NCBI GenBank assembly: GCA_018402085.1
Contig: JAGYJM010000002.1
Coordinates: 1,426,001-1,490,000, forward strand
Origin: Flavobacteriales bacterium
GTDB lineage: Bacteria > Bacteroidota > Bacteroidia > Flavobacteriales_D > Sanyastnellaceae
Length of the DNA stretch: 64,000 nucleotides
Reading direction: 5' to 3'
The translations under genes and the position numbers were made by a program. The notes under the pieces were generated by a model. That model saw nothing but the letters and a program-made list of their open reading frames with translations, made no database searches and was not told where the DNA came from. Below are positions 58,648 through 64,000 of the stretch, one piece after another (the stretch's first letter is position 1; every line of letters starts with the position of its first letter).

Positions 58648-60780
58648 TCACTGCTTAATCACCTGCTGCACTGCAGGCTGATTGCCCTGAATCATCAGGA
58701 AATACTTCCCGTTCGCCTGGCCGCGCAAGTCAAGCACATAGCGAAGGTTGGTGAGGGTATGCTCTTCAATGAGTTGACCCTGAGCATCAAAAACCTGAAG
58801 CTGTTGGCCGACCTGCTTTTCATTCAATTCGAGGTTATAGATGCCATTACCGGGGTTAGGGAATACCACGAACAAGTTCTGGACGGCATCGTCAACGTCC
58901 ACGGTGAGCACATCCACAGACAGACATATCTCATCTCCTTCGCAGCCATCGCTGTTTTCTTCGATGACGCAGATCGAAGTTGTTCCGGCCCCCGGATCCC
59001 AGATGACTTCAACGGTATTGGAGCCCTGTCCGGAAACAAGGTCGCCGCCGGTAACCGACCACTGATAGGTACTGCCCTCGTTGTTGGCATATATATAGGT
59101 ATACGCTTCGGAGTTCATGGCGATTGTTGGCCCGAGCACGTTGAAATGACTGATGTATGCACAGCTGCCGTCATCACAGCTTGCATTGGCAACAAAGTTA
59201 CACGCCAACGGATCGGTACATCCGTTCGGCATAATGCACGAACCGTCATCACAGCCTGCGGCCTGATTGAAATTACAAGCTTCAGGATCGGTGCAACCAT
59301 TGGTATAATTGCAAGGGCCTTCGCAGACGCTATCGGGGTCAAAATTACAGGCTGTGGGGTCTGAACAGTCGGTTCCGTATGTGCAGGAATTGTCGTCAGC
59401 AGCGGCCTCCGGTTCAAAGTTGCATGCAGTTGGGTCGGTGCATCCGTAGTAGAGGCAGCTGGTAGTAAGCTCTTCACAATTGGTGTAGCAATCGCCCCAG
59501 GTTGAAATGGCCGGAATCAATGCTTCATCAATTACAACGGGGTGAAGCTCAAGCACTTTGCTACCTCCGGCGATCGCATGGCAGTAGCTCATGATGGTGC
59601 CCAGTTGTGCCTGCACATCATTGGTGCAGTCACCCTCTGCTTCGGCGCAATTGTCAATGGTACCGTTCGACCAACCACACCAATGTGTGTGAGGTGAGCC
59701 GAAATTATGTCCGAGTTCATGCGCTACCACGTCAAGGTTCCATGCGTAATTCGAGAGGTTGTAGCTGGTTTGTGGCGAGAGGTAAGAACTGAAAGCCGTT
59801 CCCCAATTGTTGGAGCAATTCACATCGAGATAGGCTATACCACCGGTTCCTGTATTTGTACGCCTGGTGAGGAGGTGCACCAAATCACGATCAATTACTG
59901 AGAAGTTATCATTGTTCAGCCACTCCTGTCGAAGCCCGTTCAGCATATCATTTGCCTCTTCGACGTACTCGGCGTAGGGGTCTTCATCCTGCCACACGTG
60001 AATGTAGGTTGCCTGAATATTGATTAGGTCATCGAGGTCGGCAACGTAAATGTCGTTTACACCTGCGAGCAAGGCGAGCGTCCATTCGATTGCAGCAGGG
60101 CAATCACTACCAAAGGCTTCGAAAGTGAAAAAGTCGATATCAATCGCCATTTCTACACAGCCACCACCACTTGCAGCTTCTGAGGATCTCCCCGGCTGCA
60201 ACTCACTTGCGGCATCTTCTACCCCGCAGACGAATCCGGAGGGGTGCACACCTGCGTCAACAGGCACGATGACGTGCAAGCCCATTTCCCCTTCTCGTGT
60301 TGTACTAATTTCATATTGGCGCTTTTGGTAGATGAAAGTTCCCATTACGTAGTTCTCCATGAGGATCATCGTACCTTTAATTTCGGCTCCACGTAGGCGG
60401 TAACAGAGCAATTGCGGGGTGTAGTTTTCTTCTTTGAATTGGCCGCCGGGCAGGGTTGTGCCGAAGGTAAAATCAGTCGACCAGGGGACAAAGAGTTCAG
60501 CGTCGAGGACAACAGTTTGATTGCCCGGCAGTGGAAGTGCCAACTTCATAGAGTTGTATTTGAATGCACGCAGATCAGCGAATACCTCAGGCTCGAGTTG
60601 CAGCCCCTGCACTCCGTCGAAATCGGATACCCACTCACCCAGGCGTTGAGCGCTAACGGTTTCAAAGAGGTGTTGCACATCGGTAGCTTCAGTGCACGAT
60701 TCTGTATTGGATTGGGCAGCAAGGAGATTGCTCAAAAGCAGCGCCCCGCAGGCGAGGGCGACAGGGTACAGTCTACGCAT
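58648..60780 (-). CDS. Secreted reprolysin-like zinc metalloprotease with T9SS sorting domain
   Basis: A 710-residue secreted protease. Signal peptide MRRLYPVALACGALLLSNLLA, a propeptide-like region, then an M12B-type domain with the zinc site VAHELGHNFGSPHTHWCGW and Met-turn GTIMSYCH. After it come five Cys-rich modules of the form GCTDPxACNFxxxxxCDDGSC (about 465-575), a beta domain (580-665), and a T9SS C-terminal domain from VVFPNPGNGIYNLELNEKQV to GKYFLMIQGNQ. It should be exported by the Por system and attached to or released from the surface. A TACTTTTA box lies at 60796-60803. Confidence 0.94.
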   Translation of the reverse strand: MRRLYPVALACGALLLSNLLAAQSNTESCTEATDVQHLFETVSAQRLGEWVSDFDGVQGLQLEPEVFADLRAFKYNSMKLALPLPGNQTVVLDAELFVPWSTDFTFGTTLPGGQFKEENYTPQLLCYRLRGAEIKGTMILMENYVMGTFIYQKRQYEISTTREGEMGLHVIVPVDAGVHPSGFVCGVEDAASELQPGRSSEAASGGGCVEMAIDIDFFTFEAFGSDCPAAIEWTLALLAGVNDIYVADLDDLINIQATYIHVWQDEDPYAEYVEEANDMLNGLRQEWLNNDNFSVIDRDLVHLLTRRTNTGTGGIAYLDVNCSNNWGTAFSSYLSPQTSYNLSNYAWNLDVVAHELGHNFGSPHTHWCGWSNGTIDNCAEAEGDCTNDVQAQLGTIMSYCHAIAGGSKVLELHPVVIDEALIPAISTWGDCYTNCEELTTSCLYYGCTDPTACNFEPEAAADDNSCTYGTDCSDPTACNFDPDSVCEGPCNYTNGCTDPEACNFNQAAGCDDGSCIMPNGCTDPLACNFVANASCDDGSCAYISHFNVLGPTIAMNSEAYTYIYANNEGSTYQWSVTGGDLVSGQGSNTVEVIWDPGAGTTSICVIEENSDGCEGDEICLSVDVLTVDVDDAVQNLFVVFPNPGNGIYNLELNEKQVGQQLQVFDAQGQLIEEHTLTNLRYVLDLRGQANGKYFLMIQGNQPAVQQVIKQ

Positions 60781-60795
60781 GGTTTTGATTTGTGC

Positions 60796-60803
60796 TAAAA
60801 GTA
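60796..60803 (-). promoter_or_regulatory. -7 box TACTTTTA of the metalloprotease gene
   Basis: One mismatch to TAnnTTTG on the minus strand, 15 bases before the start at 60780. Confidence 0.45.
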
Positions 60804-60995
60804 CGGAAAACACTAAAGCGAGGTTGTAAGTGAGTGGCCTATTCGTGTGGCGATATGGAATTGCTAGTGGAGTGGGTCGGTGTGTACCTCGCCGCAATCA
60901 GGTGTCTTGATGTGCCCTAAGCCCTATCATATGGCTTTTATTTATCTACAAATCAAGCACCTATGCTCCAAATCATTCCAGTAGGAAAAAATTTC

Positions 60996-61027
60996 TTGCG
61001 CCCTTTTCAGAAATTCACCTATCTTTG
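60996..61027 (+). promoter_or_regulatory. Promoter of the tRNA-Asp locus
   Basis: TTG at 60996-60998, a 21-base spacer, then TATCTTTG at 61020-61027. Transcription would run through the first altered tRNA copy before the intact tRNA-Asp. Confidence 0.7.
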
Positions 61028-61136
61028 CAACCGCTTTGGAAGCAAAGCAGTAGCGTCACGGATTTGAATTTAACACTCTCGGCTTACACCGCCGTGGCGC
61101 ATATGATGAGGAGTACAGCGATGTATGACTCTGAAT

Positions 61137-61221
61137 GGTCTGGTAGTTCAGTTGGTTAGAATATCCCGACTTCGTCGGGAGGGTCGCAAGACAGCTAGCC
61201 ATCGGTTCGAAAGATCGAAAT
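61137..61221 (+). pseudogene. tRNA-Asp-like copy with exchanged anticodon arm (upstream)
   Basis: The first 28 or so bases (GGTCTGGTAGTTCAGTTGGT and TAGAATA) and GGGTCGC after the anticodon arm are identical to the intact tRNA-Asp. In between, the 17-base arm is replaced by TCCCGACTTCGTCGGGA, also 17 bases, with no U33. The T arm and acceptor 3' side are replaced by unrelated sequence containing CGGTTCGAAAGATCG. Not a functional tRNA. Confidence 0.75.
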
Positions 61222-61295
61222 GGTCTGGTAGTTCAGTTGGTTAGAATACCTGCCTGTCACGCAGGGGGTCGCGAGTTCGAGTCTCGTCCAGACCG
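61222..61295 (+). tRNA. tRNA-Asp (GTC)
   Basis: A 74-base tRNA. The acceptor GGTCTGG pairs with CCAGACC, the discriminator is G, the anticodon arm is CCTGC-CTGTCAC-GCAGG with anticodon GTC, and the T arm is GCGAG-TTCGAGT-CTCGT. CCA is not encoded. A terminator follows. Confidence 0.98.
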
Positions 61296-61306
61296 CTGAA
61301 TGTTTT

Positions 61307-61341
61307 GAGAAGCCCTCGCAATGTCGAGGGCTTCTCTTTTT
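61307..61341 (+). terminator. Terminator after tRNA-Asp
   Basis: Perfect 12-base stem GAGAAGCCCTCG / CGAGGGCTTCTC with loop CAATGT, followed by five T. Confidence 0.93.
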
Positions 61342-61347
61342 CCCAAT

Positions 61348-61434
61348 TCTTCAGTTGGTTAGAATATCCCGACGCAGTCGGGAGGGTCGCGAGTTCGAGT
61401 CTTGCCGATGAATCGGCACAAGCTTTCCAGACCG
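61348..61434 (+). pseudogene. tRNA-Asp-like copy with exchanged anticodon arm and extra hairpin (downstream)
   Basis: TTCAGTTGGTTAGAATA and GGGTCGCGAGTTCGAGTC match tRNA-Asp. The anticodon arm is TCCCGACGCAGTCGGGA, the same stem as in the upstream copy with loop triplet GCA. Between the T arm and the acceptor 3' end (CCAGACCG) an extra hairpin TGCCGATGAATCGGCA has been inserted. The 5' acceptor strand is lost. Confidence 0.75.
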
Positions 61435-61445
61435 CTGAAACTTTG

Positions 61446-61472
61446 AAAAAAGCCCCGAACCGGGGCTTTTTT
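61446..61472 (+). terminator. Second terminator of the tRNA locus
   Basis: AAAAAAGCCCCG-AAC-CGGGGCTTTTTT, bidirectional. Confidence 0.9.
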
Positions 61473-61515
61473 CGTCTGGAGTCGGGTATCTGGGGTCTGG
61501 GGCTTTAACCTGATC

Positions 61516-61539
61516 GGACGCGATAAATCGCGTCCCTAC
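61516..61539 (-). repeat. GTAG-footed palindrome GGACGCGATAAATCGCGTCC
   Basis: Perfect stem with CTAC (GTAG on the minus strand) at the right side; 24 bases before the satellite begins. Confidence 0.8.
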
Positions 61540-61562
61540 AGGTTTGCCGTTGAGACCAAATC

Positions 61563-62987
61563 AGCGCAAGGATGCGCTGCAAAAGACCCCCATCCCCGAT
61601 CACCGATCCACCATCCATGGACGGCTATAAGCCGTCCTCTCAGAATGGTGGAGGGGATGAATTAGCAGCGCAAGGATGCGCTGCAAAAGGCCCCCATCAC
61701 CGATCCCCGATCCACCATCCATGGACGGCTATAAGCCGTCCCCTCAGAATGGTGGAGGGGATGAATTAGCAGCGCAAGGATGCGCTGCAAAAGGCCCCAT
61801 CCCCGATCCCCAATCCACCATCCATGGACGGCTATAAGCCGTCCCCTCAGAATGGTGGAGGGGATGAATTAGCAGCGCAAGGATGCGCTGCAAAGACCCC
61901 ATCCCCGATCCCCAATCCACCATCCATGGACGGCTATAAGCCGTCCCCTCAGAATGGTGGAGGGGATGAATTAGCAGCGCAAGGATGCGCTGCAAAAGAC
62001 CCCCATCCCCGATCACCGATCCACCATCCATGGACGGCTATAAGCCGTCCTCTCAGAATGGTGGAGGGGATGAATTAGCAGCGCAAGGATGCGCTGCAAA
62101 GCATCCCCATCCCCGATCACCGATCCACCATCCATGGACGGCTATAAGCCGTCCCTCAGAATGGTGGAGGGGATGAATTAGCAGCGCAAGGATGCGCTGC
62201 AAAAGATCCCCATCCCCGATCACCGATCCACCATCCATGGACGGCTATAAGCCGTCCCCTCAGAATGGTGGAGGGGATGAATTAGCAGCGCAAGGATGCG
62301 CTGCAAAAGATCCCCATCCCCGATCACCGATCCACCATCCATGGACGGCTATAAGCCGTCCCCTCAGAATGGTGGAGGGGATGAATTAGCAGCGCAAGGA
62401 TGCGCTGCAAAGACCCCATCCCCGATCCCCGATCCACCATCCATGGACGGCTATAAGCCGTCCCTCAGAATGGTGGAGGGGATGAATTAGCAGCGCAAGG
62501 ATGCGCTGCAAAGATCCCCATCCCCGATCACCGATCCACCATCCATGGACGGCTATAAGCCGTCCCCTCAGAATGGTGGAGGGGATGAATTAGCAGCGCA
62601 AGGATGCGCTGCAAAGACCCCATCCCCGATCACCCGATCCACCATCCATGGACGGCTATAAGCCGTCCCCTCAGAATGGTGGAGGGGATGAATTAGCAGC
62701 GCAAGGATGCGCTGCAAAAGACCCCCATCCCCGATCACCGATCCACCATCCATGGACGGCTATAAGCCGTCCCCTCAGAATGGTGGAGGGGATGAATTAG
62801 CAGCGCAAGGATGCGCTGCAAAAGACCCCCATCCCCGATCCCCGATCCACCATCCATGGACGGCTATAAGCCGTCCCCTCAGAATGGTGGAGGGGATGAA
62901 TTAGCAGCGCAAGGATGCGCTGCAAAAGACCCCCATCCCCGATCCCCGATCCACCATCCATGGACGGCTATAAGCCGCCCCCCCCTC
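61563..62987. repeat. Tandem satellite, about 14 units of 102-104 bp
   Basis: Fourteen AAGGATGCGCTGC landmarks are spaced 102-104 bases apart from 61568 to about 62913. Each unit has two hairpins: GCAGCGC-AAGGAT-GCGCTGC and GGACGGCTATAAGCCGTCC, joined by a C-rich strand (CCCATCCCCGATCACCGATC) and a G-rich one (AGAATGGTGGAGGGGATGAA). Units differ by single-base indels in C-runs and by CACCG/CCCCG alternation. Open frames through it are fortuitous. The last unit degrades before the promoter of the next gene. Confidence 0.95.
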
Positions 62988-63089
62988 AAGTGTGCGGAGA
63001 GGGGTGGCATGCAGCGGCACAATTACCAACCATCTATGATATCATTGAAATATACTACCTTCCGTCTCGATAACCTCTAAAACACGCGC

Positions 63090-64000
63090 TATGCGAAAAA
63101 TTTTACTCTGCCTCATTGCGGTATCAGCAATGAACTTTTCAAATGCACAAACCACCCTTTTCTTTGATGATTTTGAAGGGTATACGCCCAACGAAGGTAT
63201 CTCTGGTCAAAGCGATACAGACCCGTGGTTTTTATGGAATGTCAGCAACGACGATTTCGATGCCAATATCGTAGACAGCATCGCTTTCAGCGGTACGCAA
63301 TCGGTGGTACTCGATCAATCGGTAACCGATGACATCGTCTATCTCGCTGATGAAACCGCCATCAGTTCAGGAGTTTACAGTGTGAGCTTTAAGATGTACA
63401 TCCCGACCGGACAAGAAGGTTACTTCAATTGCATGCACCTGTGGGACTACGAAACGACCACCAACTATGAGTGGGCAGTGGATGCCTTCTTCGGTGATGG
63501 AAATATGACCTGGGTTGTTGGCGGACAGCCAGGCGGTGCTCTTTCGTTCAACCATGACGAATGGTTTGATATCTCGGTGTTTATTGATATCGACAATGAC
63601 AATGCCATTCTGCTACTCAATGGAGAAGAAGCGGTTACTTTCCAGTGGTCACTTGATAATGCTGACGGACAATCGGGCAGCAATACCTGGCAAGTGGTGA
63701 ACTTCTTCGCTTATGGGCCATCTGAAACGAACGGACTCTACTACATCGATGATTTCACCGTCATTCAGGATCCTGCCACCAATGTGCGTGAAATTTCACA
63801 AGAGCTCAGCGTTTGGCCAAATCCGGCGAATGACGCGATCAATGTTGAGCTGCCGGCAACAGAAGCTAAGCTTGTTCGACTTGTCAGCGCAGATGGCAGG
63901 ATTGTTCACGAGCAGCAAAACCTCTCGTTACAGGGCATCCACACCATTCAGGTAAATGATCTCGCACCGGGCAATTACTTCTTGCAAGTGATGACAGACA
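63090..64000 (+). CDS. Secreted protein with T9SS type A sorting domain (cut by window edge)
   Basis: 303 residues are visible and the gene is nearly complete. Signal peptide MRKILLCLIAVSAMNFSNAQ, then a lectin/concanavalin-like beta-sandwich region (about 22-225: TLFFDDFEGYTPNEGISGQS, LYYIDDFTVIQDP), typical of glycan-binding or PKD-linked secreted proteins. The T9SS C-terminal domain starts at LSVWPNPANDAINVELPATE and reaches LAPGNYFLQVMTD at the edge. Probably Por-secreted and surface-bound; ligand unknown. Confidence 0.88.

Follow-up and report, generated by a model that had tools for sequence, protein, structure and literature searches.

The window, a stretch of 64,000 nucleotides from a Flavobacteriales genome, holds near its 3' end an intact tRNA-Asp gene that, on reading the sequence, is flanked by two partial copies of itself (61137-61436). 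Both copies carry a hairpin of the form TCCCGAC-NNN-GTCGGGA exactly in place of the anticodon arm (Table 1). The initial annotation had described this arrangement from the letters alone, and its coordinates and sequences proved correct, with every piece that it described present in the DNA. U33 is indeed absent from both copies, as the loops hold only three bases, and the extra hairpin that it placed before the downstream acceptor strand is there (TGCCGATGAATCGGCA at 61403-61418). ARAGORN calls only the central tRNA-Asp in this stretch, an Rfam search of window positions 60000-64000 returned nothing above the gathering score except that gene, and no match to a GIY-YIG nuclease was found beside the swapped copies of the window. 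The GGGTCGCAAG that follows the upstream hairpin stands behind the hairpin in relatives G017 and G027 as well, and L010, L147, L251, L252, L281 and L309 likewise show, by eye, a second hairpin in the T arm or close to it.

Table 1 Features of the tRNA-Asp locus in the window and of the dispersed repeats discussed in the text
Feature	Position	Strand	Basis or remark
Upstream copy, complete 5' half of tRNA-Asp (acceptor 5' strand and D arm)	61137..61163	+	Identical to 61222-61248 of the intact gene, by reading
Upstream-copy hairpin TCCCGAC-TTC-GTCGGGA (TCCCGACTTCGTCGGGA), replaces anticodon arm	61164..61180	+	7-bp stem folds
Upstream copy, GGGTCGCAAG (start of variable loop and T arm)	61181-61190	+	Reading
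Upstream copy, 3' side: GGGTCGCAAG and short spacer	61181..61218	+	No T arm or acceptor recognisable; without nuclease gene
Intact tRNA-Asp(GTC)	61222..61296	+	ARAGORN; Rfam RF00005, 67.9 bits
Anticodon arm of intact tRNA-Asp, CCTGCCTGTCACGCAGG	61249-61265	+	
Terminator-like hairpin and T run behind intact tRNA-Asp	61307..61341	+	By reading
Downstream copy, D-arm remnant TTCAGTTGGTTAGAATA	61350..61366	+	Reading
Downstream-copy hairpin TCCCGAC-GCA-GTCGGGA (TCCCGACGCAGTCGGGA), replaces anticodon arm	61367..61383	+	
Downstream copy, 3' half of tRNA-Asp as far as T loop	61384..61402	+	Reading
Downstream copy, second hairpin TGCCGATGAATCGGCA in T arm	61403..61418	+	Reading; fold
Downstream copy, 3' acceptor strand CCAGACC	61427-61433	+	Reading
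3' acceptor strand, then second terminator-like hairpin	61427..61475	+	By reading
CTGAGT-hairpin-GTATCGAAGG repeats with covarying hairpins	G000 C2:2841683, 2926241, 3461394, 3467793 (L317-L320); L037, L038		

A leader before the tRNA-Asp gene (61029-61120; ACCGCTTTGGAAGCAAAGC ... CTCGGCTTACA) looks structured, and a similar leader precedes tRNA-Asp in relatives G002, G003, G007 and G016. Further downstream (61560-62030) lies a tandem array with units of about 110 bases that contain hairpin-like words (GACGGCTATAAGCCGTC, GCGCAAGGATGCGC). In relative G007 (L010, 1660-1830) there are two tandem tRNA-Asp 3' remnants, in which it is not the anticodon arm but the 3' side of the T arm that has given way to a hairpin, TCCCGAAGTTTCGGGA.

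A search of the 3.78-Mb genome for further tRNA fragments with the CCCGAC/GTCGGG arm returned 18 occurrences of TCCCGACNNNGTCGGGA and none of a reversed control pattern. Sixteen of the 18 have a tRNA context with GGGTC behind the arm, and they are spread over three tRNA loci, Asp, Asn and Val. Two of these are the copies in the window, one lies directly behind a GIY-YIG gene at tRNA-Val (C2:2615190), and 13 are arrayed behind tRNA-Asn at intervals of about 111 bases (C2:3246979-3248327); the remaining two occurrences are part of a dispersed repeat. The downstream hairpin of the window is identical to the hairpin beside the tRNA-Val GIY-YIG gene (C2:2615191-2615207).

Arm swaps also occur beyond the window, in relatives and in many other Bacteroidota genomes. 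The pattern ATCCCGN{2,12}CGGGAGGGTC is present in 10 of 60 genomes, this one included, and its control in none. A blind scan of the species genomes of a public collection with AGAGCATCCCGN{2,12}CGGGAGGGTC returned at least 118 stretches and, among the matches listed, 106 of 118 come from Bacteroidota, 9 from other named phyla and 3 from genomes with no phylum assigned. The scan detects only tRNAs with AGAGCA and GGGTC, and the same swap was observed outside its pattern at tRNA-Asp and at tRNA-Leu, where TCCCGATAAAATCGGGA occupies the exact position of CTGGATTCAAAATCCAG (L212). A stricter pattern was found in 11 of 395 genomes of a phylum-wide sample, a figure that gives no estimate of prevalence because the sample is heavy in one family (f29). 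Two of the 118 listed loci, L182 and L188, are by eye probably genuine tRNAs whose arm is similar; they were retained for the hairpin and GIY-YIG linkage counts below. L084 and L174, which have neither a GIY-YIG match nor a right-strand tRNA nearby, may be chance matches.

Outside chromosomes, a scan of IMG/VR returned two stretches (L249 and L250), and a tblastn search of plasmid and phage records with one GIY-YIG query returned no match. The first stretch, on a contig filed as viral that may be bacterial, has within positions 1-900 a tRNA-Lys with three swapped copies upstream of it, a GIY-YIG frame, and one swapped copy downstream whose hairpin loop contains an insert. The second was rejected as a true swap, having no tRNA by eye and looking like a chance match.

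Existing tools see these copies in part. Such an arm is contained in 30 of 360 ARAGORN calls; apart from L182 and L188 these calls look by eye like swapped copies, and the labels that the program gives to swapped copies include tRNA-Cys, -Phe, -Gly and stop tRNAs. Odd-anticodon calls in L092, L114, L125, L138, L155, L160 and L167 are a possible source of wrong annotation. At the gathering threshold, Rfam gave 15 matches in 14 loci, all of them tRNA and none to another family, one of the 15 being a swapped copy in L046 (32 bits). The titles and abstract openings that we searched, which take in little of the subscription journals and preprints, describe neither hairpin-swapped tRNA copies nor tRNA-linked GIY-YIG cassettes of Bacteroidota, which may be in print elsewhere. 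Arm-swapped tRNA copies are a real, recurrent and lineage-wide phenomenon that is linked to a nuclease gene.

The hairpin itself is conserved as a paired structure. Among the matches listed its base is constant, its inner pairs vary with compensation, and 122 different apices occur. The search pattern demands five pairs. Of the next two, counted over distinct locus-apex cases and again among the matches listed, pair 6 forms in 137 of 144, where shuffling gives a mean of 95.6, and pair 7 forms in 115 of 133, where 2000 shuffles give a mean of 57.1 and at most 74; without L182 and L188 the values are 137 of 142 and 113 of 131. Pair 6 includes A-T, C-G, G-C and T-A. As both pairs are formed far above the shuffled level, the hairpin is kept as a hairpin.

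The swapped copies fall into two classes with opposite losses. In copies before the intact tRNA (U, n=66), the per-position match to the tRNA is 0.85-1.00 through the 5' half, about 0.5 in the leader, and behind the hairpin only some 6-9 bases match. In copies behind the intact tRNA (D, n=75), about 12 bases match before the hairpin and then the 3' half, and in young copies the match extends to the terminator and more. In the class averages the T arm and 3' acceptor are missing from U copies and the 5' acceptor from D copies; L155 and L175 retain nearly the entire tRNA, with the arm as the main change. The flanks are closer to the local tRNA than to other isotypes in 67 of 75 D copies on the left and 69 of 74 on the right, and in 65 of 65 and 63 of 66 U copies, respectively, with the qualification that copies inside one array are not independent.

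Two simpler origins for the window copies can be set aside. The arm does not come from a second genuine tRNA family, because the flanks fit the local tRNA and 122 different apices are found. The two copies are also not the duplication of one decayed ancestor, because they keep opposite halves and have different loops. The argument of the initial annotation that random decay would not produce such copies holds, because a perfect arm is exchanged for a perfect arm at exact boundaries, repeatedly and at many isotypes, with compensatory change inside the hairpin. The weight that it gave to the equal length of the exchanged arms (17 bases for 17) does not, as arms span 15-22 bases in 172 hairpins elsewhere, with 17 in only 35 of them, and the equality is therefore a coincidence.

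tRNA genes are common sites of integration, and tRNA duplications decay, which gives some footing to the idea that the copies are ordinary tRNA pseudogenes in tandem, or remnants of the attachment sites of integrase elements. This reading is scarcely credible, and it is already contradicted by the pattern across genera, where the same hairpin base is found in many genera and isotypes. In addition, the four integrase matches of this genome all lie away from the three tRNA loci and, to our knowledge, attachment repeats do not replace an anticodon arm.

At full length, the element is a cassette that consists, in order, of the 3' half of the target tRNA, a terminator, a single-domain GIY-YIG gene, a tRNA 5'-half remnant, the hairpin (TCCCG-N-CGGGA) that stands in for the anticodon arm, and finally the original 3' half in its displaced position. 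The linkage of hairpin and nuclease gene is tight. Among the matches listed, the 281 kb of sequence no more than 1.5 kb from a hairpin contain 79 GIY-YIG domain matches, each fragment counted on its own, and the other 537 kb contain none; 79 of 79 agree in strand with the nearest hairpin. The profile used was built from phmmer domains in loci from L081 onward and in L036 and L045, and is thus tuned to these loci, and its threshold was the same near and far from hairpins. Of 135 hairpins with 400 bases of upstream sequence, 47 have a domain end at most 200 bases upstream on the same strand and 0 on the other strand, compared with 607 of 27,000 random positions. A match is present in 61 of 118 loci among the matches listed; of the 64 loci in which every hairpin is more than 600 bases from an end, 36 have a GIY-YIG match and 28 have none.

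The small GIY-YIG proteins are likely DNA-cutting enzymes, a judgement to which conserved residues, Pfam and a predicted fold all contribute. The residues Y, G, R, H, E and K are at least 93% conserved in 68 rows, and nuclease-like residues are also present in 34 rows. Pfam recognises a GIY-YIG domain in both proteins that were scanned (54.6 and 63.9 bits); NCBIfam gave no match for two proteins, and a sequence search of the PDB none for one. The two genes that were translated encode 85 and 84 residues from ATG. The predicted fold of the domain (mean pLDDT 87.6) is nearest to the solved folds of HIGLE, UPF0213, Slx1 and I-TevI, a moderate likeness with a best Z of 7.6, and a Foldseek search with it returned no match below an E value of 0.001. 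No PHROG family named homing endonuclease or endonuclease matches more than 4 of 34 members, and those matches are weak. In nine nuclease pairs dN/dS is at most 0.40, where L204/L200 come from the clade that is not linked to tRNA genes and two of the nine are one pair (L230 and L251 being one genome). The gap from the domain end to the hairpin is 2-36 bases in 44 of 48 cases measured, so there is mostly no room behind the domain for a separate DNA-binding domain.

It could be argued that the swapped copies are instead selected as RNA, as tRNA-like decoys or regulators without an anticodon, with the nuclease gene as a passenger. Compensation conserves the hairpin pairs, and some copies are almost full-length tRNA bodies with a changed arm (L155, L175), as such selection might leave them. 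We nonetheless find this explanation quite unlikely: no common cloverleaf is kept, because U copies lose the T arm and 3' acceptor and D copies the 5' acceptor, so that each class falls off on one side, and a passenger gene does not sit well with 79 of 79 nearby nuclease matches on the same strand and none beyond 1.5 kb.

The nuclease clades follow the isotype of the adjacent tRNA. On a tree of 92 GIY-YIG domains, made by a quick method from few columns and with many weak forks, the isotype changes 10 times among 49 loci; the shuffled mean is 16.6 with a minimum of 14, and 0 of 1000 shuffles were as low as 10. Loci at tRNA-Lys (4 of 5 rows), tRNA-Met (3 of 4) and tRNA-Arg (2 of 2) group on the tree. 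The isotype label is that of the nearest upstream tRNA and is wrong or missing where the cassette precedes the tRNA (L090, L103, L156, L212). To judge from these sequences, the tracking fits a nuclease that knows its own tRNA gene, and shared descent may be a partial cause. Apex letters change 16 times on the same tree (shuffled mean 21.2; 1 of 1000 shuffles as low). Within tRNA-Val they do not track the nuclease clades, with 149 of 1000 shuffles as low, and we therefore do not claim a co-evolution of apex and nuclease.

Comparison of orthologous loci establishes that the cassette is present in some relatives and absent from others at the same site. At the orthologous tRNA-Val locus in the genus of G088, hairpin and nuclease are present in 3 of 30 fetched loci, and in the genus of G168 a nuclease match is found in 8 of 30; some fetched loci end at contig ends or matched the upstream gene only. 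When occupied loci were aligned with empty ones, two indicated a displaced 3' flank. In L281, compared with its nearest empty locus L282, the flank after the swapped copy scores 133 and that after the intact tRNA 35, and of all 24 usable empty loci 15 speak for displacement, 7 against it, and 2 are ties; in L304 the flank behind the swapped copy scores higher with 24 of 24 empty loci. The scores of these two loci indicate that the cassette brought its own 3' flank and that the flank of the host was pushed downstream. The same tally is 10 for, 13 against and 1 tie in L309 (24 empty loci), and 4 for, 5 against and 1 tie in the window (10 relatives). By eye, the two upstream swapped copies in L281 are spaced by sequence like the inter-tRNA spacer of L282, as if a former tRNA copy had had its arm converted.

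We propose, with somewhat more confidence than doubt and on the evidence of sequence comparison, a GIY-YIG cassette of the homing type that resides in tRNA genes, has a hairpin for the anticodon arm, and spreads by recombination through the tRNA flanks. The nuclease would cut tRNA genes of its own isotype in or near the anticodon arm, and the hairpin would occupy the position of the arm as the part that escapes cutting. The break would then be repaired from a swapped copy by way of the identical D-arm and variable-loop flanks, which would convert the arm into the hairpin and give rise to tandem copies; such repair would replace the arm exactly because template and target differ mainly there. 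Tandem units would arise if the tRNA 5'-half remnant that follows the nuclease gene recombined with the tRNA, and selection would retain one intact tRNA per array. An objection is that the intact tRNA of the cassette should still be cut unless it is protected. The two copies in the window are, on balance, probably nuclease-less members of this mobile cassette family in Bacteroidota tRNA genes. The open GIY-YIG frame beside tRNA-Val, whose hairpin is the one found in the downstream copy, might work in trans on the arrays at tRNA-Asp and tRNA-Asn.

The initial annotation had read the locus as the work of a mechanism that replaces hairpin by hairpin. The recurrent, exact exchange supports this in part, but a dedicated swapping enzyme is not needed, since ordinary recombination by way of the identical tRNA flanks can account for the precision. 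A version with such an enzyme can still be formulated: an SLX1-like nuclease would cut the bases of extruded hairpins in tRNA genes and dispersed repeats alike, and the swap would proceed without extended homology. It would account for exact arm boundaries across many isotypes, for a predicted fold near Slx1, a nuclease for branched DNA, for the second hairpins seen by eye in the T arm, and for a sister GIY-YIG clade that is enriched beside CTGAGT-hairpin-GTATCGAAGG repeats. However, flank recombination yields the same boundaries once one swapped copy exists, and the fold match is moderate (best Z 7.6), with the homing enzyme I-TevI also among the matches. We consider a dedicated exchange of this kind unlikely.

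The sister clade comprises 17 other GIY-YIG frames, which form a clade of their own on the tree of 92 domains. No tRNA is called in 16 of its 17 loci, and in L219 a tRNA-Leu lies some 330 bases from the gene on the opposite strand. Repeats of the form CTGAG-hairpin-GTATC, -GTCGAAG or -TATCGAA with a stem of at least 5 occur 9 times in 47 kb of sister-clade loci (4 of 17 loci), compared with 3 times in 817 kb of tRNA-linked loci (3 of 118 loci, among the matches listed); without the stem condition the counts are 24 and, among the matches listed, 33. The pattern CTGAGTN{8,32}GTATCGAAGG is found 4 times in this genome (G000; control 0) and in 7 of 60 genomes with 39 copies (2 hits for the reversed control) and, among the matches listed, two genomes, G000 and G032, have a CTGAGT repeat next to a GIY-YIG gene. 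In G000, one repeat lies 27 bases before a sister-clade gene, and in another the hairpin is TCCCGACAGCGTCGGGA, which has the stem found in the tRNA copies. In L206 (1300-1900), two oppositely oriented CTGAG-hairpin-TATCGAAGG repeats flank a GIY-YIG gene on either side.

We treat the link between the sister clade and the CTGAGT repeats as a lead that these sequences suggest. The initial annotation had inferred the same behaviour for the swapped arms and for covarying dispersed repeats; the enrichment beside sister-clade genes and the repeat next to such a gene in this genome speak indirectly for that connection. The window has no repeat of the CTGAGT frame with a stem of at least 5. A wider form of the idea, which we regard as doubtful, is that hairpin exchange is a general kind of mobility in Bacteroidota, driven by small SLX1-like GIY-YIG nucleases. 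Each clade would have its own constant frame, tRNA genes for one and the CTGAGT..GTATCGAAGG repeats for a sister clade; a hairpin would be cut at its base and another would take its place, and REP-like covarying repeats and swapped arms would come from one process.

REP elements have a constant frame with covarying hairpins, and the resemblance raises the alternative that hairpins of the REP type are spread by a Y1 (RAYT-like) transposase and stand beside GIY-YIG genes by chance. The genome does contain a Y1 transposase match, but this sole match, at C2:1309048, is some 178 kb away from the closest of the three tRNA loci and not near any swapped copy, and the GIY-YIG linkage is far above the random-position control, which makes this origin highly unlikely. 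What the cassette shares with REP/RAYT systems is short hairpins in a constant frame with covarying stems and a small nuclease gene beside them; unlike in those systems, the nuclease here is GIY-YIG instead of Y1 and the frame is a tRNA gene. Integrative elements, which use tRNA genes and restore their 3' end, offer another parallel, in that a new 3' flank was supplied and the old one displaced in the two Bacteroidota cases above. Here, however, the junction is at the anticodon arm and not at the 3' end, and a left-over copy carries a foreign hairpin; moreover, none of the four integrase matches of this genome lies near the three tRNA loci. Slx1, HIGLE and UPF0213 are the nearest solved folds to the predicted domain, and we know of no tie between them and tRNA genes or repeats.

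The cassette is closest, among known systems, to SegB, described as a free-standing GIY-YIG homing endonuclease that lies beside tRNA genes in T-even phages (PMC13096335, PMC2988022). Tandem amplification of a unit of tRNA and nuclease has been proposed with tRNA-Tyr in phage T6, by a recombination for which microhomology of the tRNA 5' region with the 3' region of segB is suggested (PMC13096335). As far as these descriptions go, both systems share a free-standing GIY-YIG gene beside tRNA genes and tandem units, and the tRNA 5'-half remnant directly behind the nuclease gene of the Bacteroidota cassette parallels the microhomology. As in SegB-like elements, the GIY-YIG domain has conserved catalytic-type residues, and the intergenic gene is present in some relatives and absent from others at the same site. 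Unlike SegB, compared here by its published description, the Bacteroidota genes are chromosomal and small, one copy has a hairpin for the anticodon arm, and the clades track the isotype. SegB-like enzymes are described as having a DNA-binding module joined to the catalytic domain (PMC2988022), for which the Bacteroidota genes mostly have no room, and we therefore regard the cassette not as a SegB homologue but only as working alike.

tRNA genes are among the most conserved targets open to a selfish element, and the cassette shows one way to inhabit them, in which an intact tRNA is kept and a copy with a foreign hairpin is left. The finding explains odd tRNA calls, in which swapped copies appear as tRNA-Cys, -Phe, -Gly or stop tRNAs, and it offers a chromosomal counterpart to tRNA amplification driven by SegB. 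Many stand-alone GIY-YIG genes of Bacteroidota would thereby acquire a target and a role, and the finding points to one way in which covarying hairpin repeats might have originated.
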